From NCBI GenBank assembly GCA_001829315.1, contig MIAY01000021.1:1-64000 (forward strand): a DNA stretch of 64,000 bases, in the 5' to 3' direction. A program made the translations under genes and the position numbers. The stretch comes from Spirochaetes bacterium GWE1_32_154. Its GTDB lineage: Bacteria; Spirochaetota; GWE2-31-10. Shown piece by piece: positions 21,092-41,433 of this stretch; within the stretch, counting starts at the first letter, position 1, and every line of letters begins with the position of its first letter. Below the pieces are notes generated by a model that worked only from the letters and a program-made list of their open reading frames with translations, ran no database searches and was not told the DNA's origin.

Positions 21092-21114
21092 GTTATAATA
21101 CGAGGAGTGTTATG

Positions 21115-22920
21115 ATGAATAAATATGTATTATTTTTATGTATGATAATATATGCATTTACGGGATGTAATAAAGAAGAAGAATTTGATTTAAATGAAAT
21201 AGACGCTATGGTTAGCGACAGTAAAAAATCAATTCTTGAAAAGACAACCTCAAAACCGGGCGGGAAAACCTATAAAACAGGAACAATCGGAGGAACATTT
21301 GTACGAACATTATTAGATGACCCGAAATCATTTAACCTGATAGCAACAGATGATTCAAGTGCAAAAGATATTTTAGATCCGCTTTATGAATATCTTGCAA
21401 CCTTTGATGCCAATGAAAGAAAATTTAAACCAAATCTTGCTGATTTTGAAATAAAAGCAGATGAGAAAAATAAAACCATGATCTTAAAATATACATTACG
21501 GGATGATTTATATTGGACTACCTTTGACGGAAAAGTAAAGGTAAAAGTTACATCAGATGATGTGGTTTTCTGGTATGATAAAATATCAGGAAATGAGGCT
21601 TTGCAATCTTCAGCCTATGCAGGGCAATTTGTAACAATGCCGGACGGAACAGAAGAAAGAATAACAATACATAAAATTTCAGAAACTGAATTTGAGTTCA
21701 GATTTCCGAGAATAGATTCAAACCCGGTTTTATCAACAAATATGATCTTTGGACCCAAATTTATCTATGAAAAAGCACTCAATGAGGGTGGAATCGATGG
21801 CGTTATGAACATATTCAGTGTTGACACCGATGTAAAAACAATTCCATCGTTAGGTCAAAGACACATGATAGAATATACCCCGGGTGTTCGAATTGTCATG
21901 AAACGAAATCCTTATTATTTTAAAAAGGATGCTGATGGAAATAGTTTACCCTATACTGAAACCGTTATTTATAAAATAATTTATGATATGAATACAGAAT
22001 CACTTTTATTTAAAAATGGTGAAATCGATTTTACACCGGTACGACATACAGATTTAGATGGTTTTTTAGCAATAGAAAAACCCGATTTTACGATATATAA
22101 TGGCGGAACAACATTGGGATCTGAATTTTTTAGTTTCAACCAGAATCCTGAAAAAGTAAGCAAAAAAGTAAACAGCTGGTTTACAAAAACAGAGTTCAGA
22201 CAGGCAATGAGCTGTATCGTAAATCGAGAAAGAATAATTCGCCAGGTATATAAAGGATTGGCTGAGCCGGCAGAACATTTTTTTGCAAAAGCCAATATTG
22301 TATTTGATCCATCAATTAAACAAAAATATTTGTATAATCCTGATAAAGCGTTAAAATTATTGGAATCTGTTGGTTTTGAAAAAAGATCAGATGGGATTCT
22401 CGTTGATTCTGAGGGAAATCCAGTTGAGTTTGAAATGATAACAAATGCAAATAATACAATGCGAATGGATATTATTTCAATATTTGCTGATGAAGCATCA
22501 AAAATAGGTATTAAGGTAACAATAAAAGGCATGGATTTTCAGAAAATAGTTGAAATGTTAACAACAACATACGACTGGGAGTCATTAATATTATCATTGG
22601 GAACAAATTACTGGCCTACTTCAGGTTCAAATGTATGGATTTCAAACGGCAGATTACATCTCTGGAGACCTTTTCAGGAAAAACCGGTAACCGAATGGGA
22701 GGCACGGGTTGATTATTTATACAATGAAGGGAGCGGAACTGCCGACTTAAAAAAAGCGAAAAAGTATTGGGATGAATACCAGCGAATATTACTCGATCAA
22801 TGTCCTGTAATATATATAGCTCATACATATTCATTCATGGGTATTCGTAATAAGTGGGATAATGTGTTTTACGATACATTAAATGGAATGAAAGATGAAT
22901 ATTTATTTCTAAACGAGTAG
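21115..22920 (+). CDS. Oligopeptide ABC transporter substrate-binding lipoprotein (SBP family 5)
   Basis: The product is about 601 residues. A lipoprotein signal ends at FTGC (lipidated Cys about 18), followed by an acidic linker. The mature part is a family-5 binding protein: LLDDPKSFNLIATDD and the ILDPLYEYLATFD region, VTSDDVVFWYDKI, the NPYYFKKDADGNSLPY stretch, and RQAMSCIVNRERII. The ATG at 21115 is preferred to 21112 for its spacing from GAGGAG. It delivers peptides to the permeases encoded next (5-bp gap). First gene of a five-gene opp-like operon. Confidence 0.9.
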   Translation: MNKYVLFLCMIIYAFTGCNKEEEFDLNEIDAMVSDSKKSILEKTTSKPGGKTYKTGTIGGTFVRTLLDDPKSFNLIATDDSSAKDILDPLYEYLATFDANERKFKPNLADFEIKADEKNKTMILKYTLRDDLYWTTFDGKVKVKVTSDDVVFWYDKISGNEALQSSAYAGQFVTMPDGTEERITIHKISETEFEFRFPRIDSNPVLSTNMIFGPKFIYEKALNEGGIDGVMNIFSVDTDVKTIPSLGQRHMIEYTPGVRIVMKRNPYYFKKDADGNSLPYTETVIYKIIYDMNTESLLFKNGEIDFTPVRHTDLDGFLAIEKPDFTIYNGGTTLGSEFFSFNQNPEKVSKKVNSWFTKTEFRQAMSCIVNRERIIRQVYKGLAEPAEHFFAKANIVFDPSIKQKYLYNPDKALKLLESVGFEKRSDGILVDSEGNPVEFEMITNANNTMRMDIISIFADEASKIGIKVTIKGMDFQKIVEMLTTTYDWESLILSLGTNYWPTSGSNVWISNGRLHLWRPFQEKPVTEWEARVDYLYNEGSGTADLKKAKKYWDEYQRILLDQCPVIYIAHTYSFMGIRNKWDNVFYDTLNGMKDEYLFLNE

Positions 22921-22925
22921 GGAAA

Positions 22926-23975
22926 ATGAAAATAATATCGCTGTTATATATATTTAAACAAAAACATCCGCTTATTGCATTTATAACATCAAGAACTATT
23001 TCAATGATTGCAACCCTCTATATTCTTGGTTTTTTTGTATTCGGTTTGATGCAATTAGCACCGGGGGATGTGGTTGATTCATTTGTAATCAAAGAAATCA
23101 TGAATGCCGAAGGTCGTAATGAAATAGGTCTTTTTAAGGCAGAACAGATTGCAGCGATGAAAAAAAGACTGGGATTGGATAAACCTTTCTACATTCAATA
23201 TCATCATTGGTTAAAACAGGTCTTTATTCATCAGGATTTGGGACGGTCTTTAATAAGCCGCGCGCCGGTCTTATTTCTTGTCCGGTCACGACTTATAAAT
23301 TCATTAATATTAAATCTCCTGTCATTATTTTTTATAACAATACTGTCATTTGCGCTGGGTATTTACTTTTCATCAAAAGCAGGAACTAAATTTGATTATA
23401 TTTCAGGTGGAATAATGATGGTGCTCCATGCATTTCCCTGGATATTAATGCTTATATTAATGCAAATATTTGCAGCCGCAAGCGGATTATTCCCGATAAC
23501 CGCATATCCCGGGTTTCCGTATAGTGAAGCACCGGTTAAATTCGTTTTTAAATTTGCACATCACATCATACTTCCTCTATTGGCTGCTTTTTTATCAGGA
23601 ATCGGCGGAACGGTGAGAATGATACGTGCAACAATGCTCGATCAGTTAAATCAACCATACATAACAGCCATACGATCACGAGGAATTGATGAAAAACGTA
23701 TATTTTTCAACCATGCATTCAGAAATACGTTAAATCCATATATAACATCCAGTGCAAATCTATTAGCCGGTTTATTTTCTGGCTCATTAATACTGGAAAT
23801 AGTATTTTCATACCCCGGAATAGGTAAATTAATGTATGAAGCTGTAATTCAGGAAGACATCAATCTTGTGTTGACAAATATCATGTTTATAAGTTTCCTG
23901 GTATTAGCTGGAATGTTACTCTCAGATATACTGCTTGCAATAGTTGACCCAAGGATAAGGTATTCAAAATCATGA
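22926..23975 (+). CDS. Oligopeptide ABC transporter permease, OppB type
   Basis: This 349-residue inner-membrane protein has about six helices. The first follows a short cytoplasmic tail (about 23-45), and a periplasmic loop contains the family-typical LAPGDVVDSFV and KKRLGLDKPFYIQYHHWL. The EAA motif region (IRSRGIDEKRIFFNHAFRNTLNPYI shared pattern) lies near residue 255, where the ATPase docks. It overlaps the next permease gene by 4 bp. Confidence 0.93.
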   Translation: MKIISLLYIFKQKHPLIAFITSRTISMIATLYILGFFVFGLMQLAPGDVVDSFVIKEIMNAEGRNEIGLFKAEQIAAMKKRLGLDKPFYIQYHHWLKQVFIHQDLGRSLISRAPVLFLVRSRLINSLILNLLSLFFITILSFALGIYFSSKAGTKFDYISGGIMMVLHAFPWILMLILMQIFAAASGLFPITAYPGFPYSEAPVKFVFKFAHHIILPLLAAFLSGIGGTVRMIRATMLDQLNQPYITAIRSRGIDEKRIFFNHAFRNTLNPYITSSANLLAGLFSGSLILEIVFSYPGIGKLMYEAVIQEDINLVLTNIMFISFLVLAGMLLSDILLAIVDPRIRYSKS

Positions 23976-25066
23976 ACAGATTAAAAACAATGATACTAAA
24001 AAGACCGGTTGCATTAATTTCTTTACTCATACTGATTGTATTATATATGCAGTTATTTATTATTGAATTTATAACACCGTATACGCCATCCACCGTATTT
24101 GAAACATTACCATATCATCCGCCCATGGTAGTCTGGTATTCAAAAAAGAACGGGTTCGGGCCGCAGGTTCAGAAAATGGTAATGATTGATGAAATTCGTG
24201 CTAAATATGCCCGGGTTCGGGGTGAATATTATAAAATTGAGTTCTTTGTCCGCGGCAGTGAATATACATTATTCGGGTTTTTTAAAAGTCGTATCCATTT
24301 GTATGGAACGAATGAACCATTTGTGCATGACCGGAATGAAGTACAGAATTATCCCGTATTTCTTTTTGGATCTGACGGTCTGGGGCGTGATTTATTCTCA
24401 AGAGTTCTCTATGGTTCACGAATCAGTTTAAGCATCGGAATTATTGCAATAATCATATCCCTGTCAATAGCACTGTTCTTAGGTGGAATCGCAGGTTATT
24501 ATGGGGGCAAAATTGACTGGCTGATAATGAGGTTCTCTGAACTTTTCATATTGATACCGGGGCTTTATTTAATATTATTTATACGTTCATTAATATCCCG
24601 GAATATTGACTCAGGGAAAGCATATTTACTCATAACAGTGATATTGTCATTTGTAAGCTGGCCGGGAAGTGCGCGATTAATACGGGGGCTGGTACACAGT
24701 ATAAAACGTGAAGATTTTGTAACAAATGCGAAAGCTGAAGGGGTGCCTTCTTTAGTTATATTAATAAAACACATAATACCGCAAATGTCCTCAATATTGA
24801 TTATTACAATAACACTGGGCATACCTGGGTATATTTTAGGCGAAACGATACTTTCATACCTCGGGCTTGGAATTGTTGACCCTTCAGTTAGTTGGGGCTC
24901 GTTAATAAGCCGGGATTCAACAACAATCAGTTCAATAATCCGTTATCCATGGGTTGTCATACCAGGTATTTATTTATTAATCACAACGCTCTCATTTAAT
25001 TTCATTGGCGAATTTTTACGGGACTACTTTGATCCATTTCATAAAAGTGACAAAGGAGGCCTGTAA
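23972..25066 (+). CDS. Oligopeptide ABC transporter permease, OppC type with long periplasmic insertion
   Basis: At 364 residues it exceeds the usual OppC length of about 300. The extra part is a periplasmic segment (about 40-125) between TM1 and the core, a layout also seen in YejE-type permeases. The core has the DGLGRDLFSRVLYGSRISL motif, about five helices, and the EAA loop (NAKAEGVPSLVILIKHIIPQ). GETILSYLGLGIVDPSVSWG near the C-terminus is typical. It ends immediately before the ATPase start. Confidence 0.92.
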   Translation: MNRLKTMILKRPVALISLLILIVLYMQLFIIEFITPYTPSTVFETLPYHPPMVVWYSKKNGFGPQVQKMVMIDEIRAKYARVRGEYYKIEFFVRGSEYTLFGFFKSRIHLYGTNEPFVHDRNEVQNYPVFLFGSDGLGRDLFSRVLYGSRISLSIGIIAIIISLSIALFLGGIAGYYGGKIDWLIMRFSELFILIPGLYLILFIRSLISRNIDSGKAYLLITVILSFVSWPGSARLIRGLVHSIKREDFVTNAKAEGVPSLVILIKHIIPQMSSILIITITLGIPGYILGETILSYLGLGIVDPSVSWGSLISRDSTTISSIIRYPWVVIPGIYLLITTLSFNFIGEFLRDYFDPFHKSDKGGL

Positions 25067-26056
25067 TTGATATCAATAAAAGATTTAGTTGTATCATTTG
25101 ATACTTTCAGAGGTAAGTTACAGGCTGTTCGTGGTGTTTCCTTACATATTAATAAAGGTGAAATTGTATGTCTTGTCGGTGAATCAGGCTCTGGTAAAAG
25201 TGTCACTGCACAATCGATGCTCAGATTAATAAATGACCGGTCGATCCAATCAGGTTCCATTGAAATTGATGGTTTTAACATTCTGAAATCTGATAAAAAA
25301 TCACTTGCCCGGTTTCGCGGAAAACATTGCGGAATGATCTTTCAGGAACCCGGCAGATCATTCGATCCGTTATATACCATAGGAAAAACATTTCACGAAA
25401 CAATTAAAGCACATAATAAAACCATATCAGATAAGGCAATCTTTGAAAAATCACTATCGCTTTTAAAAGAAGTCGGTATCTATAACGCAGAAGAACGACT
25501 GGGAAATTATCCTCATCAGTTATCAGGCGGCCAGCTTCAAAGGGTCATGATTGCATTATCAATAGCATCGGATCCTGATTATTTAATAGCCGATGAACCG
25601 ACAACTGCCTTGGATGTTACAATTCAGCGAAAAATAGTAGAATTGATAAAGCGTTTAAGTTTTGAAAGAGGGCTGACTGTTGTTTTTATAACGCATGATT
25701 TATCTCTGGTAAAAGATTTCGCCGATAAAGTCATTGTTATGTACTCGGGTATTATATTAGAGCAGGGGAAGGTTGATGATATTTTTAATCACCCGAAACA
25801 TCCGTATACAAGGGCTTTAATTAAATCAATACCAAAAGCCGGTGCAAATTATAAAAATGAAAAACTCATATCGATTGAGGGAGTTGTACCCGATCCGGTA
25901 TATCCTCCGCCGGGTTGTCCGTTTGCTTCACGCTGTTTGTATACACAGTCCATATGTACCGTTCAAATCCCGCACAGTATACAAACCGATGCCTACTCAC
26001 AGTACCGGTGCATACTGACGCCCGAAGAACTAAAAACCAGGGGGGATGTATGTTAG
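25067..26056 (+). CDS. Oligopeptide ABC transporter ATPase, OppD type
   Basis: The 329-residue ATPase has Walker A GESGSGKSVTAQ, Q-loop FQEPGRSFDPL, signature LSGGQLQRV, Walker B YLIADEPTTALD and the switch His in ITHDLSLV. It ends with the oligopeptide/dipeptide C-terminal domain whose cysteines (CPFASRCLYTQSIC and a later Cys) are typical of Fe-S-bearing OppD/DppD. It starts with TTG at 25067, directly after the OppC stop, with AAAGGAGG 7 bp upstream. Confidence 0.93.
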   Translation: MISIKDLVVSFDTFRGKLQAVRGVSLHINKGEIVCLVGESGSGKSVTAQSMLRLINDRSIQSGSIEIDGFNILKSDKKSLARFRGKHCGMIFQEPGRSFDPLYTIGKTFHETIKAHNKTISDKAIFEKSLSLLKEVGIYNAEERLGNYPHQLSGGQLQRVMIALSIASDPDYLIADEPTTALDVTIQRKIVELIKRLSFERGLTVVFITHDLSLVKDFADKVIVMYSGIILEQGKVDDIFNHPKHPYTRALIKSIPKAGANYKNEKLISIEGVVPDPVYPPPGCPFASRCLYTQSICTVQIPHSIQTDAYSQYRCILTPEELKTRGDVC

Positions 26057-27021
26057 AAATTAACAATGTCTATAAAAAATTTAATCTTGAAGACGGTTTA
26101 TTTGCCGGATACGGAAAATTCGTTTATGCAGTCAATAATATTTCATTACATATCAAAAAAGGTGAAACATATGGTTTAGTAGGCGAGTCGGGATGCGGGA
26201 AATCGACATTATCACGATTAATTGCCGGTATTTATAAACAGGATTCCGGTGAAATCAAAATAAAATTAGGCGGTGTCTCATACAATCAGGGAGTCGCAAA
26301 TGATAATGCAAGTGTATTAGCATTAAGGCAAGGTGTTCGATATATATTTCAGGATCCGGCTAAATCATTAGACCCGCGAATGAATGTTGGTGAAATCATC
26401 GTTGAAGGGTTTAAGTATACACAAGAGTATAAAGGGAAAAAAGATGCACTTAGAAGAACAGGTGCATTGTTAGAATCTGTCGGTTTAAGTGAAAAAGATA
26501 TCTCAAGACGACCCGGTGAGTTCTCCGGGGGGCAACGGCAGAGAATATCAATCGCAAGGGCGCTTATTACAAAACCTGAAATTTTAATATGCGATGAAGT
26601 CGTATCCGCACTCGATGTCTCTGTACAAAGTCAGATAATCAATTTGCTGATTGATATTAAAACAAAAGAAAATATAACCATTGTATTCATTTCACACGAT
26701 CTTGGTCTTGTTTCCTATATTTCTGACAGGGTGGGGGTAATGTATGGTGGCATGATTGTCGAAGAACTTGATGCAGAAAAAATTGTAGATAATCATAAAC
26801 ATCCCTATACAACGCTTTTGTATTCATCTTTATCAGGGAAAATGAAAGTCGAAAGTATAATACAGAATGATGAGGTGGCAAATATAACAACTCAATTAAC
26901 CGGATGCCCGTTTTATCAGCGTTGTACTAAACGCATAGAGATATGTCACACTATGATACCGGAATTAAAACCGGTATCGAATGACAGTGAACACAAAATT
27001 GCATGTTTTGTTATGAATTAG
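26050..27021 (+). CDS. Oligopeptide ABC transporter ATPase, OppF type
   Basis: The 323-residue ATPase starts at 26050 (MLEINNVYKKF), overlapping the OppD gene by 7 bp; a frame open from 25915 runs inside oppD and is not used. Walker A GESGCGKSTLSR, Q-loop FQDPAKSLDPR, signature FSGGQRQRI, Walker B ILICDEVVSALD and H-loop ISHDLGLV are present. The C-terminal OppF domain has CPFYQRCTKRIEIC. It pairs with OppD to power import. Its end overlaps the convergent cyclase gene by 11 bp. Confidence 0.93.
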   Translation: MLEINNVYKKFNLEDGLFAGYGKFVYAVNNISLHIKKGETYGLVGESGCGKSTLSRLIAGIYKQDSGEIKIKLGGVSYNQGVANDNASVLALRQGVRYIFQDPAKSLDPRMNVGEIIVEGFKYTQEYKGKKDALRRTGALLESVGLSEKDISRRPGEFSGGQRQRISIARALITKPEILICDEVVSALDVSVQSQIINLLIDIKTKENITIVFISHDLGLVSYISDRVGVMYGGMIVEELDAEKIVDNHKHPYTTLLYSSLSGKMKVESIIQNDEVANITTQLTGCPFYQRCTKRIEICHTMIPELKPVSNDSEHKIACFVMN

Positions 27022-29005
27022 TTTTTTTATCATCAGTAGTTTTTTCGGTTTTACCGGCAACAAGATAAATAGCTGATTTTAATGATTTAATAATATCACG
27101 TTTTTCATCATCACTTATTGATTTCGGGTCAATAAGTGCACTGTTAAAAACAATACCGTCTTTATCAATTTTCATAATATTTCTTGATTTTTTAGAATTC
27201 CCAAGTTCATTAATGACTTTAAAAGTACTAACTGGTTCGCTAATTCCTTTTAATTGAAGTTCTCCAACCGGTTCACATTGAATCTGATCTTTTATAAGTG
27301 AATATGTTTCATACGAAATATAAATTGCATCAGCATCAGCTGCTGCCTCAAATCGTGCTGCAAGATTAACATGACTTCCTATTATGGTATAATCCATTCT
27401 GTTTTCAGAGCCAAAATTACCAACGGTACAATACCCTGTGTTGATACCCATACGGATATGCAGCGGTCTGTGAATCCCTTGCTCTTTCCAGTAATATCGC
27501 AATTCTTTCATTCTGTCCCGCATTTCTATCGCCATCATAGCAGCTCTGTATGCATGGTCTTTATCATTGACAAATTCGGGGTCACCAAAGAAAACCATAA
27601 TTGCATCACCAATAAATTTATCGATTGTTCCTCCCCATTTAATAGCAATTTTCGCCATATTATCCAGGTAGGTATTTAATATTTCTGATAAATCTTCCGG
27701 TTCCATACCTTCGGTTGTTGATGTAAAACTGACGATATCCGAGAAGAAAACTGAAAGTTTTTTTCTCATGTGTTTTTTAGTATCTATTGAGGTTTTTCCA
27801 CCGATTATTGAGTCGTACAATTGTGGAGCCAGATATTTTTTCATTTTGTTTAAAAGTGATTGAATAGTTCGTGTTCGTTCTATAATTGTGCTTTCAAGAT
27901 TCTCATTCATATTTTCAATTGTTGAAATCTTGTCACTCAGTGTCAGACGCATATTATTAAATGCCTGACTTAATTTTCCGATCTCATCTTTTAAATCGGT
28001 CATGATTTCATACGAAAGATCACCTTCTGTGATTTTATTAACACCGTTTAAAAGATTATTTATTGGAACAAGAATTGATTTGGATAAAATAAAAACAAGA
28101 AAATATGATATGATTACACAAACTATCATAATGATCATAAAGTTAATTGATGCGTTTAACATCATTTTAAAATATGGTGATGATGGAATACTTATTCGTA
28201 AAACTGCCAATGTTTTACCTGTAATATCAAAAACCGGTGTGTATTCTGAAATAAAACCACCGGGTACAAGATTGGCGATTTCAATATTCTTTTTTGATGC
28301 TACAACTTTTGCATATAAATCATCATCAATTTGTCGTTCATCTGATGACACTACTGAAATGACATCGTGATAAATAGCATAATCAACATCCAGTAAATCT
28401 TTCAACGTTTTTGCAAAATAATTATCATCATTTAATATATATCGGACTGATAAATAACCAACAATTTTTTCATCTCTGATAATGGGAGCCGCTGAAGAAA
28501 TTGATAAAATTGAATTATAATCAAGAAGCTCAACAGTTTCAGTACCGGTAGCAACATTACTTGTTTTTACAGCTTTTTCAATAATATCATTATCTTTAAA
28601 ATCAGTTTTTATCTGATGCTTAATAATTGAATTAGTAGCCAGAGCTGAACTTGTCATAACATCAAATTCAGAGTTTAATATAGTTATATTGTATATTTTT
28701 TCTCTTTTTACTACTTCCTTAATATATTCTGAAAGTTTATTTCGTATATCAAGATCGGTTAATACCTGGATCGCTTTATCATTTGAAAGGTTTGATGTGA
28801 AAGAAACAATTTCATTTGTTTTATTGGCATAAATCATTTCAGTAACTTTAAGGTTTTTTTTCATGTTATAGGTTGCTTCATTTTTTATTTTGCCTAAAAA
28901 GTACATAACAGAAAATGCTGTTGTAATAAATATTGTCAGCCCTGTTACAAGTATGAATGAATAATGCAGTTTGTTTTTTAATGACATTTCACTTAAATTA
29001 ATCAC
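27011..29005 (-). CDS. Membrane class III adenylate/guanylate cyclase with Cache and HAMP domains
   Basis: The 664-residue protein has TM1 at about 13-35, a large extracytoplasmic Cache-like sensor (36-285), TM2 at about 286-310 and a HAMP domain. A short coiled coil follows, then the class III cyclase domain from about 410 (SVFFSDIVSFTSTTEGM; second metal Asp in FIGDAIMVFFGDPE; substrate region NFGSENRMDYTIIGSHVNLAARFE). The lysine in GGTIDKFIGD is as in many bacterial cyclases; ATP versus GTP specificity needs testing. It is the last gene of the leftward six-gene operon and starts 11 bp after the D-Ala-D-Ala ligase gene. It is therefore probably made together with the sensor-MFS protein. 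Confidence 0.9.
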   Translation of the reverse strand: MINLSEMSLKNKLHYSFILVTGLTIFITTAFSVMYFLGKIKNEATYNMKKNLKVTEMIYANKTNEIVSFTSNLSNDKAIQVLTDLDIRNKLSEYIKEVVKREKIYNITILNSEFDVMTSSALATNSIIKHQIKTDFKDNDIIEKAVKTSNVATGTETVELLDYNSILSISSAAPIIRDEKIVGYLSVRYILNDDNYFAKTLKDLLDVDYAIYHDVISVVSSDERQIDDDLYAKVVASKKNIEIANLVPGGFISEYTPVFDITGKTLAVLRISIPSSPYFKMMLNASINFMIIMIVCVIISYFLVFILSKSILVPINNLLNGVNKITEGDLSYEIMTDLKDEIGKLSQAFNNMRLTLSDKISTIENMNENLESTIIERTRTIQSLLNKMKKYLAPQLYDSIIGGKTSIDTKKHMRKKLSVFFSDIVSFTSTTEGMEPEDLSEILNTYLDNMAKIAIKWGGTIDKFIGDAIMVFFGDPEFVNDKDHAYRAAMMAIEMRDRMKELRYYWKEQGIHRPLHIRMGINTGYCTVGNFGSENRMDYTIIGSHVNLAARFEAAADADAIYISYETYSLIKDQIQCEPVGELQLKGISEPVSTFKVINELGNSKKSRNIMKIDKDGIVFNSALIDPKSISDDEKRDIIKSLKSAIYLVAGKTEKTTDDKKTNS

Positions 29006-29016
29006 GATTTGTACCT

Positions 29017-30141
29017 CTAAATTGAATTATATTGTATTTTTTGTTTTCTTGCATATCTTTCAAACCCAAAATTAATAATTTTCGTTAAAATATTTGTAAC
29101 AGTGATACCTGATTTTCTCCAGGCATTATTATAAACGGACATCGCTCCGAAACCCGGAACAGTATTGATTTCATTTAATAAAATAGTAGAAGTATTGTCA
29201 ATAAAAAAATCAATTCTTGATAAACCGGAAATTTCAAATTCTCTGTACACAACTGCTGCTGATGCATATAATCTGTCACGGGTAATTTGATCAATAGCTG
29301 CCGGTATAATATCAGGAAGAGCATTTTTACCATATTTTGCATCATAATCAAGAAAATCATTAACTGAATTAAATTCTGCCGGAACACTGAATTCCGGAAT
29401 CAGATCACCGGTTACACATATACCATATTCTTTTCCGGTAATTTCTTTTTCTACAATTACCCGGTCACCATAATTGAATGCTACATCTATACCCGTTTTA
29501 AGTTCATTTATATTATAGCATTTTGAAATACCGACCGAAGACCCGAGGTTGGGTGGTTTTATAAAAACGGGGAATTTTATTGTTTCTGTTATTTTTGTTA
29601 TGAATGTATCAGGATTTATTGTATATAAATCTTTATGAAGTGTGAGAAATTGTGCAACCTGAATTTTTGATGATTCCGCAATCTTTTTTACTTTTTCTTT
29701 GTCATTAGCAATTAATGACGCTGTAACCCCGCATCCCGTATAGGGTACGCAATTAAATTCCAGTACACCCTGGATTATTGCATCTTCACCGCACAAACCG
29801 TGAAACACCGGGAAAGCAATATCTATTTCATTACAAGTAAGTTTATCAACCGAATTAATATGTGAAGATTTGATAATGTGCTGTTCAATATAGTTTTCAA
29901 AGTCATCTGGAATCGTATCATCGTTTCCAAACAAAGCATATTTTTTTGAATGTATAATTGAAAATATTTCACTCAATGACTCTTCTGTAGTCGCAATAGT
30001 ATTATTCTGATTAATGTAGATGATAAACAGATCAAAAAGATTTCTATCCACGTATGCAGCAATATATAATGCTGATTTAATGGATATTTCTCTTTCTGCT
30101 GATTTACCGCCGAATAATAATGCGACTTTTTTTTTATTCAT
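29017..30141 (-). CDS. ddl: D-alanine-D-alanine ligase
   Basis: The 374-residue ATP-grasp enzyme has LLFGGKSAEREISIKSA at the N-terminus, then FHGLCGEDAIIQGVLE, VTASLIANDKEKVKK, FIKPPNLGSSVGISK and NEINTVPGFGAMSVY. The DYDAKY element keeps the tyrosine associated with D-Ala-D-Ala rather than D-lactate ligation. It joins two D-alanines for peptidoglycan. The ATG at 30141 is favoured by GAAGG 6 bp upstream, and it overlaps the stop of the sensor-MFS gene (ATGAATAA). An alternative ATG lies at 30153. Its place beside a racemase and sensors, not in a mur cluster, is unusual. Confidence 0.92.
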   Translation of the reverse strand: MNKKKVALLFGGKSAEREISIKSALYIAAYVDRNLFDLFIIYINQNNTIATTEESLSEIFSIIHSKKYALFGNDDTIPDDFENYIEQHIIKSSHINSVDKLTCNEIDIAFPVFHGLCGEDAIIQGVLEFNCVPYTGCGVTASLIANDKEKVKKIAESSKIQVAQFLTLHKDLYTINPDTFITKITETIKFPVFIKPPNLGSSVGISKCYNINELKTGIDVAFNYGDRVIVEKEITGKEYGICVTGDLIPEFSVPAEFNSVNDFLDYDAKYGKNALPDIIPAAIDQITRDRLYASAAVVYREFEISGLSRIDFFIDNTSTILLNEINTVPGFGAMSVYNNAWRKSGITVTNILTKIINFGFERYARKQKIQYNSI

Positions 30142-32542
30142 CTTTACCTTCATTTTTTCGCGGGTTGGTACTGAATATAATAAATAGAATTGTTGAAATA
30201 ATGATAAAAATACCGAGAATTGCTGTCGTATTTATAAAACCCGTTGCACTTATAAGTGCACCGGCTGTTAATGGAACAAATATTGCAATCAATTTCTCGT
30301 ACGTCGTAATAATACCAAGTGTTTTTGCTTCTCCAATTCTTTTTGCAGTATCTGTTGAAGTAATAAATGATTCGGTTGCTGCATCGGTTAACATACTTCC
30401 AAAACCAAGACCGATAATAACAAGAATAAATATGTAAATATTAGGATTTATAAGAAATAGAAGTAGAAAAACACCATTGATTAAATTACCGGCTGCGATA
30501 AATAATTTGTCATTTTTAATTTTGTCGGCTATACGGCTGAAAAATGGTGTTGATAAACTGATAATTCCAAAAATTGTTAAAACACGACCAATATCAGATT
30601 GTGATATGCCTTTATTATCCATAAAAAGAGGAAAAAGATATTGAAACAAACCGACAAATGCCAGTGAATACGGAATACTGGAAAGCAATGTGTTTACCAG
30701 TAAATTTCTATTTTTAAAAATACATAAAAAGTCTGATAGGGATGCATGTTTTTTTTCATCAGAAATATCATCTTCAATAACAACATCTTTTTTAATAAAA
30801 ACGAATATGAAAAGAAGTAAAATAAGAGCAGCAATACCACTTATAATCATTACATTTCTAAAGCCAAGACGGCTTACTAAAATACCACCAATTGGAACTG
30901 CACATATCGCAGCTGATGCAAAACCTGCTGACCAGTAACCAAAACCTGTAGTTCGTGATTTATCGGGTATTGAATGAATAATTAAATTTGTACTTGAAAT
31001 TATTATTCCACCATAACCGGCACCGGAGATAAATCTGAAAATCATTAACTGAATGATAGATGTCGAAAATGCTGATAAGATTGCTCCGGCAAAAAGGAGC
31101 AGTGAACAGGATAATAAAATCTTTCGAACCCCGAATCTATCAGTTATAAAACCGATTAACGGAACAAAAATCATAACCCCGAGCATATATGATGATATCG
31201 GCAGTCCCATTATTGTTCCCCGTGAGGTATTGAACAATTGAAGTGGTTGCAGATTAAATAATTCGTTAATATAAATCGGCATAAAAGACAATGGAATGAG
31301 TTCGGCAAAGAAAAAGATAAATGCTGTAAATCTAATGATTTGCATATTATCTTCTGATTTTTGCACAACAACGGCATTTTCAAGTTTCGTATTTTTTACA
31401 ATGAGTATATGAAGAAAACCCATCATTTCAAAACCAAAAACTATTGAAATGAGAATAACGGTAAGAATATCAAGGATTAAATTTCGCTGTTTTTCTTTAA
31501 TAATTTCACGGTTCATATAGACAAATAAATAACCTTTCAGCTGTTGATTTGAATTTAACGTTGTTACAATTCTGAATGGATTTGCAGCAAAATTTTCTTT
31601 TTCACCTGAACCGACTTGTATTGATTTATTATTCTTATCGCCTTGATATAAAATGAATCCATTTGTATCAGTAATTCGCATTTCAAGACATTCAATATTA
31701 TCTTTAACTCTTTCATGAATTATTTCTTCGGCTTTTTTCATTCGATCAATTTTAATATCTAATGAAAGTACAAAGTCAAACCCGGTTTTAACAACTCTTG
31801 ATAATGTTTTCATGTTTTGATTAAATAATTTAGAATATTCAACTTCATATAATTTGTTATTTACAAGACCCGAGCCTAATTGAGAAAAAGTAAGTATGAC
31901 AAATATGATAATTGATATGAACATTTCTCTTTTTTTACTTTTCTCAGTGTATAGAAGAAGCATTGAAAGTACTAAAATAGTTATGAAAAGTGCTAAACTA
32001 AGAGAAAATCCATAATATTTCATTGTTTTCTGATTAATCGGTGCAACCTGATCTTTAATCATTTTACTGTCTATTCCGAGATATAAAACACCGGTCCAGT
32101 CAGTTTTATTATAATATAAAGGTAGTGCGGTATATATAACCGTTTTAGTATCAAATGTATATTCATCAGATTGATTTTTAAAGACTGGAATTCTTTTGAA
32201 TGGTACTTTTTTACCTGTTATACCTGCTGACATTGAATAAAAAACATCACCTTCAGGCGATGCAATGATTATTTCTTTTATACCCGTTTTTTCTTCACCG
32301 GATGATATATCAATTATTCTATTATAGTCTCCGAATCTGTCTAATGGTTTACCGTAATCAATTGCTGTTTCAACGTTTTTACGGATTTCTTTTGAAACAA
32401 TTCGATATCGTGAAACCACCGTTTCTTTATATGTTTTTTCAAATGAAGATGTGGTTAAAAAACTACTTAATAATTGTGAAATTATAATAATAATTGAAGC
32501 CCCGATCAATATGTATAAATTATACTTGACTCTATTCATCAT
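30134..32542 (-). CDS. Sensor-MFS fusion: two extracytoplasmic domains joined to a major facilitator transporter
   Basis: The 802-residue protein starts with TM1 (about 8-28) and an extracytoplasmic domain (29-172) with PAS/Cache-like strand patterns (IKEIIIASPEGDVFYSM; WTGVLYLGID). Two helices (173-227), a second such domain (228-350; MRITDTNGFILYQGD) and another helix (355-380) follow. From about 400 there is a complete 12-helix MFS transporter with the DRFGVRK loop motif after its second helix. Family knowledge supports sensing domains on kinases, receptors and cyclases, but not usually on MFS carriers. It overlaps both neighbours (ATGA upstream, 8 bp downstream). I infer a transporter gated by, or reporting on, an extracytoplasmic ligand. 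Confidence 0.85.
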   Translation of the reverse strand: MMNRVKYNLYILIGASIIIIISQLLSSFLTTSSFEKTYKETVVSRYRIVSKEIRKNVETAIDYGKPLDRFGDYNRIIDISSGEEKTGIKEIIIASPEGDVFYSMSAGITGKKVPFKRIPVFKNQSDEYTFDTKTVIYTALPLYYNKTDWTGVLYLGIDSKMIKDQVAPINQKTMKYYGFSLSLALFITILVLSMLLLYTEKSKKREMFISIIIFVILTFSQLGSGLVNNKLYEVEYSKLFNQNMKTLSRVVKTGFDFVLSLDIKIDRMKKAEEIIHERVKDNIECLEMRITDTNGFILYQGDKNNKSIQVGSGEKENFAANPFRIVTTLNSNQQLKGYLFVYMNREIIKEKQRNLILDILTVILISIVFGFEMMGFLHILIVKNTKLENAVVVQKSEDNMQIIRFTAFIFFFAELIPLSFMPIYINELFNLQPLQLFNTSRGTIMGLPISSYMLGVMIFVPLIGFITDRFGVRKILLSCSLLLFAGAILSAFSTSIIQLMIFRFISGAGYGGIIISSTNLIIHSIPDKSRTTGFGYWSAGFASAAICAVPIGGILVSRLGFRNVMIISGIAALILLLFIFVFIKKDVVIEDDISDEKKHASLSDFLCIFKNRNLLVNTLLSSIPYSLAFVGLFQYLFPLFMDNKGISQSDIGRVLTIFGIISLSTPFFSRIADKIKNDKLFIAAGNLINGVFLLLFLINPNIYIFILVIIGLGFGSMLTDAATESFITSTDTAKRIGEAKTLGIITTYEKLIAIFVPLTAGALISATGFINTTAILGIFIIISTILFIIFSTNPRKNEGKDE

Positions 32543-33771
32543 TTCCCGCCTATTGTCTGATATATTTCATCAGAACTTGCAATAATATCGATTGGAACAT
32601 CATAGTTAATTAATTCTGCCGCTTTTAAATTGATTGCTATATGAGGGACATGTTCAAATATTTGATTGAGAGAACCTGCTTTTTCTCCTTTTAATATTGT
32701 GACAATTTTTTTTGCATTGTAAATACCGACAGATATGACATTACTTTCAGATTCTCCTAATAATATACCGTTTGATACAAAATCAGAACCTTCCATTGCA
32801 AATGTCGGGATTTTATATTGTTTAATAATTTTTAATAATGCCGGTAGAATGTCAGGAGTCAGTCCGCCTTGTATACCAAGATAGAGTGCATCAATATCCG
32901 GTGCAATTTTTTTTACGGCGTTTATATATTTCTTTTCTGCAAGAGCAAAATTTTCATCAGTAGGATCTTCTATGACATCAGTGGATGTAACTAATTCAAA
33001 GCCCAGTTGTTTTGATAACTTTTCTGCAGCATCAACAGCACCATAACTTCTTCCAAGAGGTGTGTCGGTATAGATTATACCAAGTTTTTTAAACTTAATA
33101 ACACTGTGAAACAGTTTAAACTGTCTGGAATCCTGTTCAGGATCACAACTTGCCGATAAAAGAATATTCCCCGAGTCTTCATACGATTTTATTAAACCTG
33201 AACCGATGGGGTCAGAAACATTTTCAGCTATTACCGGTATTTTAAGAAGTTTTGATTGAGATACAATAAGTGCTGATGTGGTGCCTAATGAGATAATAAT
33301 ATCAGCTTTTTCACCGGATAAAATATTGTGTAATTTAGGAGAAATTTTTGTCGGTTCTTCCCAGTTAAAATCGAAGTATGCTTCATTACTGAATATAAGG
33401 TATTCGCTTATTTCAGGATCACTTAATTTTATTATTATTTCCGGCATAGGCAATGTATCATCAAATGTAATATTTTCTTTTATCCACCCTAATGTAGATA
33501 AACCTTCAACAATACCTTTTAACATATGAGAGTAACCGTAATATTCACCACTTTGAATTATTGCAACTCTAAACTTTGCACCGTCTTTTTTTTTCACAGG
33601 AATTAACTGTTCTTTGTATGCTCTTGACTGATCTCCTGTTGAGTCGGTCAGATCAACAACTTCGATGGTTTCAATAATATCTGATTGATATTCTTTTAAC
33701 TCTTCAGTTCTATTGGAGTTACATCCGGTTATAAGAACAAGTAAAAGCAGTAGTAATAATTTTGATTTCAT
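32539..33771 (-). CDS. ABC-type substrate-binding lipoprotein (PF04392-like) without a permease
   Basis: The ATG at 33771 is chosen for its GGAAGG site; a longer frame from 33804 puts 11 residues ahead of the signal peptide. The 410-residue product has a lipobox (LITGC, Cys17), a linker, and a bilobed periplasmic binding fold: FRVAIIQSGEYYGYSHMLKG, IISLGTTSALIVSQ, IPVIAENVSDPIGSGL, KLGIIYTDTPLGRSYGAV and IPTFAMEGSDFVSNGI. These match the ABC_sub_bind family that includes tryptophan-type binders. No ABC permease or ATPase is nearby. Instead the next gene, overlapping by 4 bp, is the sensor-MFS fusion, so the lipoprotein may present ligand to it. Confidence 0.88.
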   Translation of the reverse strand: MKSKLLLLLLLVLITGCNSNRTEELKEYQSDIIETIEVVDLTDSTGDQSRAYKEQLIPVKKKDGAKFRVAIIQSGEYYGYSHMLKGIVEGLSTLGWIKENITFDDTLPMPEIIIKLSDPEISEYLIFSNEAYFDFNWEEPTKISPKLHNILSGEKADIIISLGTTSALIVSQSKLLKIPVIAENVSDPIGSGLIKSYEDSGNILLSASCDPEQDSRQFKLFHSVIKFKKLGIIYTDTPLGRSYGAVDAAEKLSKQLGFELVTSTDVIEDPTDENFALAEKKYINAVKKIAPDIDALYLGIQGGLTPDILPALLKIIKQYKIPTFAMEGSDFVSNGILLGESESNVISVGIYNAKKIVTILKGEKAGSLNQIFEHVPHIAINLKAAELINYDVPIDIIASSDEIYQTIGGK

Positions 33772-33847
33772 AGTAACCTTCCCGATATTTTTTTGTACGT
33801 ACAAGTTTTTTTGTTTGAGTTACATTGCGGGTAACTCTACAAATCCA

Positions 33848-34759
33848 TTATTTCAAACCGACAGAGTATTCATTATATACCATATCGGTAAATTGTTTTT
33901 TAAAATCATACAATGATTTTCTTGAACCGGAACCGTCTAAAACTACATCGTATTTATCAGATATAATTTTTAACGATTCCAAATATCCAAATGCAGATAA
34001 GCCCTGAAAATCATTGTCAGCTATTCTAAATATATTGATACAGGTTCTATCATGATGCGGTGCAAAAGAAATAAAGCCTTTGATCATGTTATTCAAACAG
34101 ACTTCATAACTGTCAATACCATATTCTTCCTGATGTGATAAAAACCATGTAAATGCATCATTACTATCAGGTGTAATCCCACGGTTAATAGCGTTGTGAT
34201 GCCATTTTTCTCTAAGATTTTTTATTATATCACAATTTTTTTTATTGTACTTTTTTAATATCGGATTTCCATATTTTTTTAAACAATTTGCAATATTTCT
34301 TCGCAGTCGTCTAAAATGGGGATATGATAAATCTTCAATTTGTTTAGGTATTATTGTAAATAATGGTATTTTGTTGTTCATAATTTCAAATATATCATTA
34401 TTATATAAATGTATTTCATCGGGAGAAATCCTTAATATTCTTGGGGCTGGATTATCGAATCGTAATGCAGTTAGTTCTTGTTTGGTTAGTTCAATGATTT
34501 TTGCCTGATCAACAAAAGGCGGTGCATAAAGGTTTGTACATCCGGTAATTTTGTCTTTAAAATATATATATAAACCATCGTTATTTTCTTTGTAGAAAAT
34601 CTCACCAAATTCAAGGTCATTTACCATTCCGCAGAACGAGAATTCCCAGATGTTGTATTGATATTTCTTTAGATATTTCATTATAATATTGTTTGAATCA
34701 GATTGTAGAGTATTGTAATGAATAGTGTTGAGTTCAATTACTTTGTCGTTTGAAAACAA
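33848..34759 (-). CDS. DUF2156/LPG-synthase-like acyltransferase-fold protein
   Basis: The 303-residue cytosolic protein resembles the C-terminal GNAT-like domain of phosphatidylglycerol lysyltransferases (PF09924). The family ending is visible as DGSGSRKSLYDFKKQFTDMV, and a central RRLRRNIANCLKKY region and the NMIKGFISFAPHH strand also fit. It has no membrane helices, unlike MprF. Related proteins transfer amino acids from aminoacyl-tRNA, but many are uncharacterised. It begins 2 bp after the racemase-like gene, so a link to amino acid chemistry is likely. The assignment rests on short motifs. Confidence 0.65.
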   Translation of the reverse strand: MFSNDKVIELNTIHYNTLQSDSNNIIMKYLKKYQYNIWEFSFCGMVNDLEFGEIFYKENNDGLYIYFKDKITGCTNLYAPPFVDQAKIIELTKQELTALRFDNPAPRILRISPDEIHLYNNDIFEIMNNKIPLFTIIPKQIEDLSYPHFRRLRRNIANCLKKYGNPILKKYNKKNCDIIKNLREKWHHNAINRGITPDSNDAFTWFLSHQEEYGIDSYEVCLNNMIKGFISFAPHHDRTCINIFRIADNDFQGLSAFGYLESLKIISDKYDVVLDGSGSRKSLYDFKKQFTDMVYNEYSVGLK

Positions 34760-34761
34760 TT

Positions 34762-35817
34762 CTATACATCTCCTTTATAAGAAATAGTTGTATAAGGATG
34801 ATGAAATGCTTTTACAACCGCATCATATTTGCAGTCAAATGATATTACATCACCAGGCGATAGTGAATGTTCACAATCAGTTATGTCAATTACCGAGTGA
34901 TCATACGACTGAGCGCATATAATTATACCATTAGTTATCGGTCGGATATACTTAAAATCCGCAATCATTGAGCCGAAATTTATTACCGCCCGTTTTCTAA
35001 TACCATTAGTCATAAATAAACGTTCATTATTAAAATGTTCGCCAAAGCTGTTCAACGCATTGTTTCCTTTTATATTGGTATTGACTTCTTTCGTTTCGAT
35101 AACTTCACCTTGTAACGTAAATATTTCATTCTCAAGTCCGTGAATCGGGGTATTCGTGTAAGTGTTAAAACCGAATAAAATTGATTCTCCCATTCGTATG
35201 TGAGTCAGTTTATGGGGCAGTTGTTTATTGGTAAGAAAATCAAAAAGAATGGTTCCGCCTGCTGCAATAATTGGATCAGATAGTTGTATCATTTTTGATA
35301 ATCTGAGTGATGTATCACAAAAATTGTTAATATCATCCACATCAGGAGTGATTCCGTGAATACAGCCGTAATTTGTTGAAAACCCGGTTATTCTGTTGAT
35401 ATGTTTGTCATCAATGTGTTGAATGAGGTTTTTAAACATCCCGGGAAGAATGCCTTCGCGTAAACCGCCCATTTCAAGTTGTATGATAAACCGGACTTTT
35501 TCTGATGCATCGGATAAGTGATTGATAATAAACGGGTCGGCTGTATACACAACATCCGGTATGTATGGTGTGTTAATAATCGATCTTGTTGCAGATAACA
35601 AAGCAGTCGGGAATGTATTTTCCCATTTTGAGAGGTTTTGTTCATGCACATCAGTAATGATCGGCAGCCCCAGCTCAATCAATGGTGAAATAATCTCACG
35701 AACTGATCTGACACATTTTGTAACAGGCAGAAAAATAAGATTGTTATCATTGCACATTTTTTTAATTATTGAATAGTTTGAAGAAATTTTTTTGTTGTCA
35801 ATTATTAAGTCCGCCAT
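34762..35817 (-). CDS. PLP-dependent amino acid racemase (ornithine/alanine racemase-like, fold III)
   Basis: The 351-residue protein has the alanine racemase N-terminal TIM-barrel layout. The expected PLP lysine is in FLPVTKCVRS (about Lys34). The FIIQLEMGGLREGILPG strand, FSTNYGCIHGITPD and the AAGGTILFDF and THIRMGESILFG segments are typical of the ornithine racemase/YhfX-like branch rather than Alr. It would interconvert an L- and D-amino acid; the substrate is not evident. First gene of the tight six-gene minus-strand operon containing D-Ala-D-Ala ligase and a sensor-MFS protein, so it may supply a D-amino acid to the envelope. Confidence 0.8.
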   Translation of the reverse strand: MADLIIDNKKISSNYSIIKKMCNDNNLIFLPVTKCVRSVREIISPLIELGLPIITDVHEQNLSKWENTFPTALLSATRSIINTPYIPDVVYTADPFIINHLSDASEKVRFIIQLEMGGLREGILPGMFKNLIQHIDDKHINRITGFSTNYGCIHGITPDVDDINNFCDTSLRLSKMIQLSDPIIAAGGTILFDFLTNKQLPHKLTHIRMGESILFGFNTYTNTPIHGLENEIFTLQGEVIETKEVNTNIKGNNALNSFGEHFNNERLFMTNGIRKRAVINFGSMIADFKYIRPITNGIIICAQSYDHSVIDITDCEHSLSPGDVISFDCKYDAVVKAFHHPYTTISYKGDV

Positions 35818-38352: not shown

Positions 38353-38370
38353 TAAAATAAATATTTGGTC

Positions 38371-38408
38371 GGGGAAGTAAAATGTTATTTATTGCATTTT
38401 GCTTCCCC
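38371..38408 (+). terminator. Hairpin between the small lipoprotein and the GH13 gene
   Basis: GGGGAAG-T-AAAATG pairs with CATTTT-G-CTTCCCC around a 10-nt loop and is followed by ATTTTTATTG. The structure is a strong stem with a short T-run. It probably terminates part of the transcripts, giving more lipoprotein than enzyme. Confidence 0.75.
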
Positions 38409-38466
38409 ATTTTTATTGAGGCTTTATCACGAAGAATTGAAGCGTGATTACAGTCAGGAGGGAAAA

Positions 38467-41433
38467 ATGAAACGTAAATTAACACAATTATATATAATTG
38501 TATGTCTCGTATTTGTATTTTTTCTATCATGCACTAATGGTGATCAGGGTGATGTTGTGAAAGCACCTGAAGAAGAAGTTCCGGTGACCATAAAATTCTA
38601 TCCTGAGTATACACCAATCGGCGGTATGTTTAAAAACAGTGTTTCTGTAACTATTGCATCTGAGTTGAAAACTGCTAAAATATACTATACCAATGACGGT
38701 TCTACACCAACAGAGAAATCTATTGAATATAAAGAACCTTTTCAGTTAACTGAAACGACTGTAATACGAGCCGTTGCTATGTATAAGGATTTACACTATT
38801 ACAGTATGACTGCGTATGAAATTGACAATACCAATACAGTACCGGATATTTCAACCCACGTTGCATCACCTGAAAATAACTGGGGTGATGAAATAATCTA
38901 CATGATGATGTTGGACAGGTTTAATGATGGCGAAGCTGCAAATAATAATCAGGGTTCCGGTGAATATGGAACTGTTGAAGGCCTCTATAATGGTGGTGAT
39001 TTCAAGGGCATCAGTGAGAAACTTGATTATATAAAAAATCTTGGTGTAACAGCAATCTGGATAACGCCACCCGTTAAAAATCAGTATCACGACGGAAATC
39101 ATGCCGGATATCACGGATATTGGGCAAGTGATTTTTTAAATACAGACCCTCATTATGGTTCGATAGAAGAATATAAAAACTTTGTTGACCTTGCTCATTC
39201 AAAAGGATTGAAGGTTATACAGGACATCGTTGTTAATCATATTGCAGATTATTTTAAAGTTTCAACAACCGGTAAATATGATACTATAGCAAGTCGGTGG
39301 AGTATAAATAATTCCTCAATTCCATTAAAACAACCTGATAATTCTCCATGGACAATGAATAATCCTACGCTATTGACCGAAGATGAATTTAAATATTCAT
39401 CGTTCTATAATTGGAACCCGATGATTATGGATTACAATGATTACAATCAGATTCGAACGTATCAGGTTGGTGATCTGGATGATTTAAAAACGGATAATCC
39501 TGTCGTGAGGAGTTTGTTGCGGGGGTATTTCAGATACTGGATTGATAAAGTCGGAATCGACGGTTACCGGGTTGATACAGTCTATTATGTTGAGCCTGAA
39601 TTTTTTGCAGATTTTGTTAATTCAACGGAAACTGATAATTTAGGTGTCCGGGAATATGCAAAATCAAAAGGAAAAAATGATTTTATTGTATTCGGTGAAG
39701 CCTGGCATAGAGATGATGAAGTGTGTGCAGAATATACGAAAGGAACTGACGGTGATGCTCGCATGGACTCATTGATTTATTTTCCGTTAAATCTTGCGGT
39801 AAGAGATCTTGCTTCAGGTGAGAAAACATCATTAGTGACTGAAGTGTTAAATAAAAGGTATACGGTGGGGTATCAGAATCCTGATAAACTCGTAACGTTT
39901 GTAGATAATCATGACATGGAAAGATTATTAAATAAAACATCACCGGAAATGGTTAAGGCTGCTTATACAATAATTATGACGATTCCCGGAACTCCTCAGT
40001 TATACTATGGGCAGGAACAGGGATTTACGGTTGCACGGGCTGCAATGTTTGCAGGCGGGTTTAAAGATCATGGCCAGACAAACGCTTCTGATTTATTTAC
40101 TGAAAGTGGCGTGTGGTGGGATTATTATTCGGCACTTATTGAAATGAGAAAAAATAACAGAGTTCTTCGATACAATAATCTGAGTGTTATTAAAGACACT
40201 GATAATGGAGGCGGTATTTTTGCATACAGGCTGGTTGAAAAAGATAATGCAGGAAATGCGTTAACCGGTATCGATAAAAAAGCATTGGTGATTATTAATT
40301 CATCTGATAATCAAAAAACGCTGTATGTAAAAAGCGGCTTTCAAGCCGGGGACAAACTCGTTCTTATCAGCCCTTCAGTGAATCTAAATAGTCTTACTGA
40401 GATAATAGCACATGAAGACGGGTATATTTCAGTTGTTATCCCGTCACTTGCTTCAGGGGTTTATGTTTTAAAAGAAAATGGAGTCCCATATACAACTGAT
40501 AATAGAACAATAAATATAAGCACAACTTTTTCTGAACCCGTTTTTACCAGTACTATTATTTCCGGAACTTTAGAAAATGTAACGTTTCCTGTTGAAATTG
40601 AATTGTTGGTAGATGATAATGAAGATGCACCTCTTGATTCTTTTATTGTTAATGAATTGAGCTGGACTAAAACTGTCGATATCAGTTCAATTTCAAATGG
40701 ATTGCGTACAATGCGTGCGAAGATTAAAGGAACATCAGTGTATTCGGATAGTGTTACCTTTGAATATAAAAAACCGTATGAACTGGTTGCTCAAACTGAT
40801 GATCCTCTAGGTGATGATAATGGACCATCAGGAAAATATATTCAACCAACGGACAGTACTTTTGCCGGTAATATGCAGGATATTAAAAATGTGAAACTCT
40901 ATACTTCTGGTGGTGATTTAAAAATTGATATTATCATGAAAAATATTACAAGAGTTTGGAAACCGACGGTGAATCAGTTTGATCATGTTGCATTTTCAAT
41001 TTTTGTAAGTAAACCGGGTGATGTGAATGGTGTTAATTTTCAGCCATTGCATAATTTTACACTTCCCGATTCATTTAAGTGGAGTTATCTATTTAAAGCA
41101 GAAGGGTGGAGTACTGTTGGTTTTTCTTCAATAGATGCTACAATATCTAAAAATGGAACACCGATAAGCCCGGCTCCTTCCAGTAGTGTTAATTGGGCGT
41201 CAGATACCGAAAGTCTAAAAGCTGATGGTGTTATTACATTTACAATTAGTTCTCAATCAATTGGTAAACCACAATCATTATCGGGTTATAAAGTATATAT
41301 CAACACCTGGGATATTGATATGGGGAAACTACGTCAGATTTTTCCTGAAGCGAAAGCATATTCATTTGGCGGTGGAGAAATGGAAACAGATGCACTTATC
41401 ATGGATGAAACAGCAGTTATAACAATTCCATAA
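38467..41433 (+). CDS. Multidomain GH13 amylase-family lipoprotein
   Basis: The ATG at 38467 follows CAGGAGGG and gives 988 residues. Cys22 (FFLSC) is the lipidation site. Residues about 50-118 form a chitobiase-C-terminal-like module (IYYTNDGSTPTEKSIEY). The GH13 barrel has DIVVNH (253-258), GYRVDTVYY (Asp370 nucleophile), GEAW (Glu411) and VDNHD (479-483). A beta domain and an Ig-like region follow. About 775-985 resembles the glucodextranase C-terminal module (DDPLGDDNGPSGKYIQPTD). The enzyme is thus surface-anchored and glucan-binding. Its likely target is starch, pullulan or maltodextrin; specificity is not evident. Confidence 0.92.
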   Translation: MKRKLTQLYIIVCLVFVFFLSCTNGDQGDVVKAPEEEVPVTIKFYPEYTPIGGMFKNSVSVTIASELKTAKIYYTNDGSTPTEKSIEYKEPFQLTETTVIRAVAMYKDLHYYSMTAYEIDNTNTVPDISTHVASPENNWGDEIIYMMMLDRFNDGEAANNNQGSGEYGTVEGLYNGGDFKGISEKLDYIKNLGVTAIWITPPVKNQYHDGNHAGYHGYWASDFLNTDPHYGSIEEYKNFVDLAHSKGLKVIQDIVVNHIADYFKVSTTGKYDTIASRWSINNSSIPLKQPDNSPWTMNNPTLLTEDEFKYSSFYNWNPMIMDYNDYNQIRTYQVGDLDDLKTDNPVVRSLLRGYFRYWIDKVGIDGYRVDTVYYVEPEFFADFVNSTETDNLGVREYAKSKGKNDFIVFGEAWHRDDEVCAEYTKGTDGDARMDSLIYFPLNLAVRDLASGEKTSLVTEVLNKRYTVGYQNPDKLVTFVDNHDMERLLNKTSPEMVKAAYTIIMTIPGTPQLYYGQEQGFTVARAAMFAGGFKDHGQTNASDLFTESGVWWDYYSALIEMRKNNRVLRYNNLSVIKDTDNGGGIFAYRLVEKDNAGNALTGIDKKALVIINSSDNQKTLYVKSGFQAGDKLVLISPSVNLNSLTEIIAHEDGYISVVIPSLASGVYVLKENGVPYTTDNRTINISTTFSEPVFTSTIISGTLENVTFPVEIELLVDDNEDAPLDSFIVNELSWTKTVDISSISNGLRTMRAKIKGTSVYSDSVTFEYKKPYELVAQTDDPLGDDNGPSGKYIQPTDSTFAGNMQDIKNVKLYTSGGDLKIDIIMKNITRVWKPTVNQFDHVAFSIFVSKPGDVNGVNFQPLHNFTLPDSFKWSYLFKAEGWSTVGFSSIDATISKNGTPISPAPSSSVNWASDTESLKADGVITFTISSQSIGKPQSLSGYKVYINTWDIDMGKLRQIFPEAKAYSFGGGEMETDALIMDETAVITIP

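Follow-up and report, generated by a model that had tools for sequence, protein, structure and literature searches.

Why would an MFS transporter carry two sensor domains outside the membrane on its own chain, and how is it tied to the substrate-binding lipoprotein encoded beside it? We asked this of a gene at 30134-32542 in a 64,000-nucleotide stretch of contig MIAY01000021.1 from Spirochaetes bacterium GWE1_32_154, the whole of which we call the window. The first-pass annotation had placed the gene exactly, and had missed both its minus strand and the wider operon, whose features are as follows.

27011..29005, minus strand: membrane class III cyclase with a dCache-like sensor, HAMP and Guanylate_cyc
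29017..30153, minus strand: second D-Ala-D-Ala-ligase-like gene (Ddl paralogue)
30134..32542, minus strand: sensor-MFS gene, Cache-Cache-MFS, 802 aa (open reading frame, Pfam, AF2)
30137..31357, minus strand: 12-helix MFS domain, residues 396-802 (PF07690, E 6e-56; AF2 helices; distinct subfamily)
31358..31393, minus strand: cytoplasmic linker into the MFS, residues 384-395, the HAMP site in Azospirillum relatives
31394..31936, minus strand: unit B (TM3, Cache domain B, TM4), residues 203-383 (AF2, homology to unit A)
31949..32542, minus strand: unit A (TM1, Cache domain A, TM2), residues 1-198 (AF2, Foldseek, homology to unit B)
32539..33804, minus strand: PF04392 substrate-binding lipoprotein (E 9e-17), lipobox LITGC, 421 aa from TTG (33804) or 410 aa from ATG (33771)
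33848..34759, minus strand: 303-aa protein between racemase and binding protein
34762..35817, minus strand: fold-type III PLP racemase-like protein, ornithine racemase-like, below the curated cut-off

The reading frame runs uninterrupted, without stops, through 802 residues of the minus strand. An AF2 model of residues 1-396, made with 10 homologues (pLDDT 82, pTM 0.77), repeats one order of elements, long helix, short helix, β-β, β-β-β and long helix, at residues 2-198 and 203-383, and its Foldseek matches in the PDB are the extracytoplasmic Cache/PAS domains of WalK, KinD, CitA, DcuS and Tlp3. When the profiles of units A and B were compared by hhalign, TM helices included, the probability was 98.9% with an E-value of 1e-17; the region is therefore a duplicated TM-Cache-TM unit. 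Both outer domains are predicted from the model to be Cache folds, each between two TM helices. Pfam gave no significant family match in residues 1-400, and no Cache model among them; with so divergent a sequence, membership of the Cache class rests on the fold, that is, on its topology and on the homology of the two copies. A shared origin of these domains and the sensor of the neighbouring cyclase was considered and is unsupported (hhalign probability 5-8%). Residues 405-720 match MFS_1 (PF07690), and a full-length AF2 model, with an only moderate pLDDT of 70, places 12 more TM helices after the N-terminal region. By profile and model this is an MFS domain, for which a carrier role is predicted. 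The chain ends after it and, unlike the SLC5/STAC-type transceptors, has no cytoplasmic kinase. The charge distribution fits an N-in start, Cache A and B outside, a cytoplasmic linker and then an N-in MFS. The first-pass annotation, which had described about 380 residues with two Cache/PAS-like outer domains and four extra helices before a 12-helix MFS, is thus borne out by reading frame, Pfam, AF2 and Foldseek; it had also held that a structure prediction lacking a sensor fold would overturn it, and the model returned such a fold in both domains.

Is the fusion kept in other genomes? Searching 393 Spirochaetota genomes with a family profile (E <= 1e-30), we found a matching MFS in 17, of which 11 belong to the sensor-MFS family (10 with both Cache domains, 1 cut by a contig end) and 6 are more distant, with other N-terminal extensions. 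Within the family f19, 274 genomes yielded 14 members, 11 of them new and 1 of these cut by a contig end. The total for Spirochaetota, including the window's own genome, is 22 genomes: 20 with full-length proteins, 2 cut by contig ends (G008, G469) and none split. A frequent split near residue 390, named beforehand as evidence against the fusion, did not appear in any of the 20 full-length members. The only split form, in Vibrio and Azospirillum, breaks between Cache A and Cache B and leaves Cache B fused to the MFS. An artefactual fusion or assembly error is ruled out by recurrence in these 20 proteins and in other phyla. The same architecture, which the annotation had proposed to look for outside this phylum, is present on plasmid records of Nitratidesulfovibrio and Aureimonas, where both Cache domains are common with the spirochaetes (A3 HMM, E 3e-20 and 3e-27). 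On the plasmid of Nitratidesulfovibrio vulgaris DP4 the binding-protein gene overlaps that of a 987-aa Cache-Cache-MFS, and on that of Aureimonas sp. AU20 an 823-aa Cache-Cache-MFS is found with a GCS2 ligase, a PF04392 protein and a dCache-HAMP-SpoIIE protein. The gene order in Vibrio sp. THAF190c and Azospirillum is a separate TM-Cache gene, a Cache-MFS gene and a PF04392 gene; the Vibrio version (L112:10191-15561) has type VI secretion genes (VgrG-like, ImpA_N) as neighbours. In Azospirillum brasilense Sp7 a HAMP domain at residues 184-233 immediately precedes the MFS (E 4e-9, above cut-off). Azospirillum B510 has a weaker HAMP match between Cache and MFS, and in the Vibrio Cache-MFS one stretch resembles a HAMP by eye, without a Pfam match. 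No HAMP is recognisable in the spirochaete proteins, which have only a short linker. Two Azospirillum MFS of ~500 aa in the same clade have no Cache domain and only a short N-terminal extension.

The relatives in other phyla surfaced solely through plasmid records; a scan of genome contigs with two peptide patterns, in which silence elsewhere means little, returned six Spirochaetota loci and one ordinary MFS, and a scan of viral contigs found no relative. Sensor-MFS domains score 100-584 bits against the family MFS model, compared with 28 bits for an ordinary MFS. In a maximum-likelihood tree of MFS domains the two ordinary MFS fall outside all sensor-MFS, with many inner branches weakly supported and very long outgroups, and we regard the bit-score gap as the firmer sequence evidence for a distinct MFS subfamily. 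The sensor-MFS is a real, conserved, multi-phylum architecture. A second group is found at L060:6059-11819, L061:4795-10577 and L062:5860-11588: an MFS of ~1000 aa, with an N-terminal region that looks propeller-like by eye, directly adjoins a cyclase whose N-terminus is of the same kind, together with a PF00551 formyltransferase-domain gene. At L059:3928-8018 a 653-aa MFS with one Cache-like domain adjoins a dCache_1-HAMP-SpoIIE protein.

The lipoprotein gene lies upstream of the sensor-MFS gene and overlaps its start by 4 bp, ATGA. The overlap had been reported by the first-pass annotation, with the lipoprotein begun at its ATG (32539-33771), and its remark that ABC partners are missing also holds: the operon has no ABC permease or ATPase gene, the nearest ABC genes in the window are at about 22926-27021 on the opposite strand, and none were recognised at the homologous loci. 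Since permease and ATPase genes are missing from the operon, it does not qualify as a TrpX-type ABC importer. The plus-strand genes at 21112-27021, convergent with the sensor-MFS operon, include ABC genes resembling an oligopeptide (Opp/Dpp) operon. At every Spirochaetota locus with an uncut operon a PF04392 gene is present, in either gene order and mostly overlapping, and Nitratidesulfovibrio, Aureimonas, Vibrio and Azospirillum have this partner as well. Binding protein, Cache and MFS are linked too regularly for coincidence. At L055, L056, L078-L080 and L082-L085 the binding protein adjoining the two-Cache MFS has ~790 aa, double the usual length, and two PF04392 domains were confirmed in that of L055. 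Some PF04392 proteins bind aromatic amino acids. Relatives with known structures include PDB 3lkv, 6hni and 3lft. The same genome has two other PF04392 proteins, one fused to a histidine kinase and one near a HAMP histidine kinase, and no ABC genes were recognised beside either gene; these ties connect the family, in this genome, with sensing rather than ABC import. At L109:1270-7582 (same genome, C1) a PF04392 protein lies beside a 449-aa protein, an aminotransferase-type PLP enzyme and a HAMP-PAS hybrid histidine kinase, and this is possibly a parallel circuit.

What do the other genes of the operon tell us? The N-terminal V-T/S-K lysine of the racemase is kept in 15/15 copies, and the Ddl paralogue keeps its KY/KF motif (by eye). 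A housekeeping racemase/Ddl operon was ruled out, because canonical-type alr and ddl genes are present elsewhere in the genome. The 303-aa protein has no match in the other sensor-MFS loci. Outside f19, the usual order in Spirochaetota is racemase, binding protein, sensor-MFS and Ddl paralogue, with the cyclase up- or downstream; the exceptions are L009, without Ddl, and L053, without a racemase beside the MFS. The f19 loci usually run racemase, sensor-MFS, binding protein (in most cases a tandem of two PF04392 domains), a divergent LysRS1 and the cyclase. At L057 the LysRS gene stands between binding protein and MFS with no cyclase nearby, and at L087, from the same genus, the locus is cut by a contig end. 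The class I LysRS of the f19 operons (L055:3013-4668 and other f19 loci) has an altered HIGH motif (N to I/F) and has lost the second KMSKS lysine, in every copy covering both motifs. These changes, together with a canonical LysRS1 elsewhere in 5 of the 6 f19 genomes checked, rule it out as the housekeeping enzyme; the sixth genome (G581, 88% complete) has the operon copy only. It is possibly an amino-acid sensor or a new enzyme. Most loci have a receptor enzyme near the sensor-MFS, either a class III cyclase or SpoIIE. One representative of each of six families has a cyclase within 7 kb, with 0.04-0.10 expected per genome; the resulting chance product of ~5e-8 is a post hoc figure from related genomes, with lineages treated as independent. 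The metal aspartates of the window's cyclase are in place, as is the Lys/Asp pair that characterises adenylate cyclases (by eye). Near the operon of L053 a large membrane protein (L053:12210-15065, related to L010:14406-17954 and L052:575-4117) has two cyclic-nucleotide-binding domains and is a possible cyclase target. Elsewhere in the window, at 38365-41433, a 1022-aa protein has a lipoprotein-like start and by eye looks like an alpha-amylase.

How might these components work together? We favour, with evenly balanced confidence, a sensor-gated MFS carrier that works with a dedicated binding protein. The lipoprotein would capture an amino-acid-type ligand in the periplasm, and the two membrane-anchored Cache domains would read this capture, or the free ligand. 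The change would run along the Cache helices and through the cytoplasmic linker, whose place is taken by a HAMP in some relatives, to the first MFS helix, where it would turn transport on or off. The substrate would probably be a compound derived from an amino acid and produced or altered by the operon enzymes, moved more likely outward, and the neighbouring Cache-HAMP cyclase, or SpoIIE in other lineages, would inform the cell of a related stimulus. That relatives have a HAMP between Cache and MFS is an argument for conformational signalling from the former to the latter, and the Azospirillum HAMP, the Cache-HAMP cyclase and SpoIIE neighbours and the histidine-kinase links of PF04392 proteins together favour signalling control over plain substrate feeding. 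Subfamily scores of the MFS lean to drug-efflux and aromatic-acid carriers, and the Azospirillum MFS has a GP..GG motif resembling antiporter motif C (by eye), which weakly favour export over import. Against gating stand the short spirochaete linker without HAMP and the two Azospirillum MFS without Cache; the signal could also flow from transporter to sensor, or the Cache domains might pair with the cyclase instead. Could the operon be a self-contained extracellular signalling circuit? The enzymes (racemase and ligase, or racemase and LysRS-like paralogue) would make an amino-acid-derived molecule, the gated MFS would export it, the binding protein and Cache domains would read its level and throttle export, and the cyclase or SpoIIE would signal inside. 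We consider this rather unlikely.

Other explanations share parts of the same evidence. The lipoprotein may dock on the Cache domains as a scaffold and pass its ligand to the MFS for uptake; such a hand-off, the idea of the first-pass annotation, is possible, although as an explanation of the whole a binding-protein-dependent importer seems doubtful to us. The constant presence of the binding protein at complete loci, its overlapping gene in either order and the lack of ABC genes beside all three PF04392 genes of the genome speak for it. Yet a mere dock would need no HAMP relay, which relatives have, the operon enzymes look biosynthetic, and the best MFS scores are those of drug-efflux and aromatic-acid carriers. 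MFS carriers, moreover, move by a rocker-switch. Pairs of binding protein and secondary transporter are known (TRAP, TTT and TAXI-GltS), which accords with an importer, but these are described or modelled as elevator-type (PMC12344293). It is quite unlikely, in our opinion, that the MFS is itself a sensor, or transports weakly, and signals jointly with the Cache domains, for example to the neighbouring cyclase. Fusions of transporter and receptor do exist, as in CbrA (PMC13022988, PMC7096432), cyclase or SpoIIE neighbours recur, and several spirochaete members have a motif A that looks degenerate by eye; against this, the sensor-MFS chain has no cytoplasmic output domain and many residues of the MFS core are invariant in the 10 members compared. 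Finally, the protein might be an ordinary carrier whose N-terminal domains aid assembly only and whose neighbourhood reflects nothing but a shared regulon. The intact MFS domain and the Azospirillum relatives with a short extension would suit this reading, but duplication, fusion, partner and HAMP placement are all kept across large sequence distances, and we think it very unlikely. The sensor-gated carrier is the reading we retain.

We file the sensor-MFS, as a variant, among regulated or binding-protein-linked secondary transporters. A dedicated binding protein is encoded with the carrier, as in the SBP-dependent secondary transporters, and the carrier is MFS_1 and not of TRAP, TTT or GltS type. 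In a literature search, with most subscription journals outside its scope, neither a Cache-MFS fusion nor an MFS served by a dedicated binding protein was found described. By sequence the lipoprotein belongs with the PF04392 proteins of known structure and of TrpX-type ABC systems, unlike which it has a Cache-MFS partner in place of permease and ATPase and, in f19, a tandem duplication of PF04392. Pairs of the LuxP-LuxQ type may be a parallel, in that a membrane protein senses a periplasmic binding protein through paired Cache/PAS domains; the output of LuxQ is a kinase. Genetic coupling of an extracytoplasmic binding protein to a secondary transporter is shared with TAXI-GltS and TRAP/TTT transporters (PMC12344293), but those are elevator-type, or modelled so, and use TAXI or DctP proteins, whereas here PF04392 is combined with an MFS and two Cache domains of the same chain. 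The same authors ask why binding proteins pair with so few kinds of secondary transporter, consider that an elevator mechanism may be required and call for further classes (PMC12344293). The constant pairing of a binding protein with an MFS seen here offers a test case for that idea. The SLC5-STAC histidine kinases CbrA and CrbS likewise unite a secondary transporter and signalling modules in one polypeptide (PMC13022988, PMC7096432, PMC5715377), but with the transporter as input and a kinase as output, whereas here Cache sensors precede the transporter and there is no kinase. With receptors such as WalK, KinD, CitA and DcuS (PMC4822843) the protein shares the TM-Cache-TM fold and, in some relatives, HAMP; unlike in them, an MFS occupies the output position. 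Earlier work recorded Cache domains in no proteins other than those with output signalling domains (PMC4822843); against that record, a relay from Cache through HAMP to an MFS would make the transporter the receptor's own output. Both ideas are open to bench tests, since versions of the system occur in cultured strains of Azospirillum brasilense (Sp7) and Nitratidesulfovibrio vulgaris. If the signalling-circuit reading were true, the class would be categorically new, one in which an extracytoplasmic receptor has a transporter directly as its output domain.
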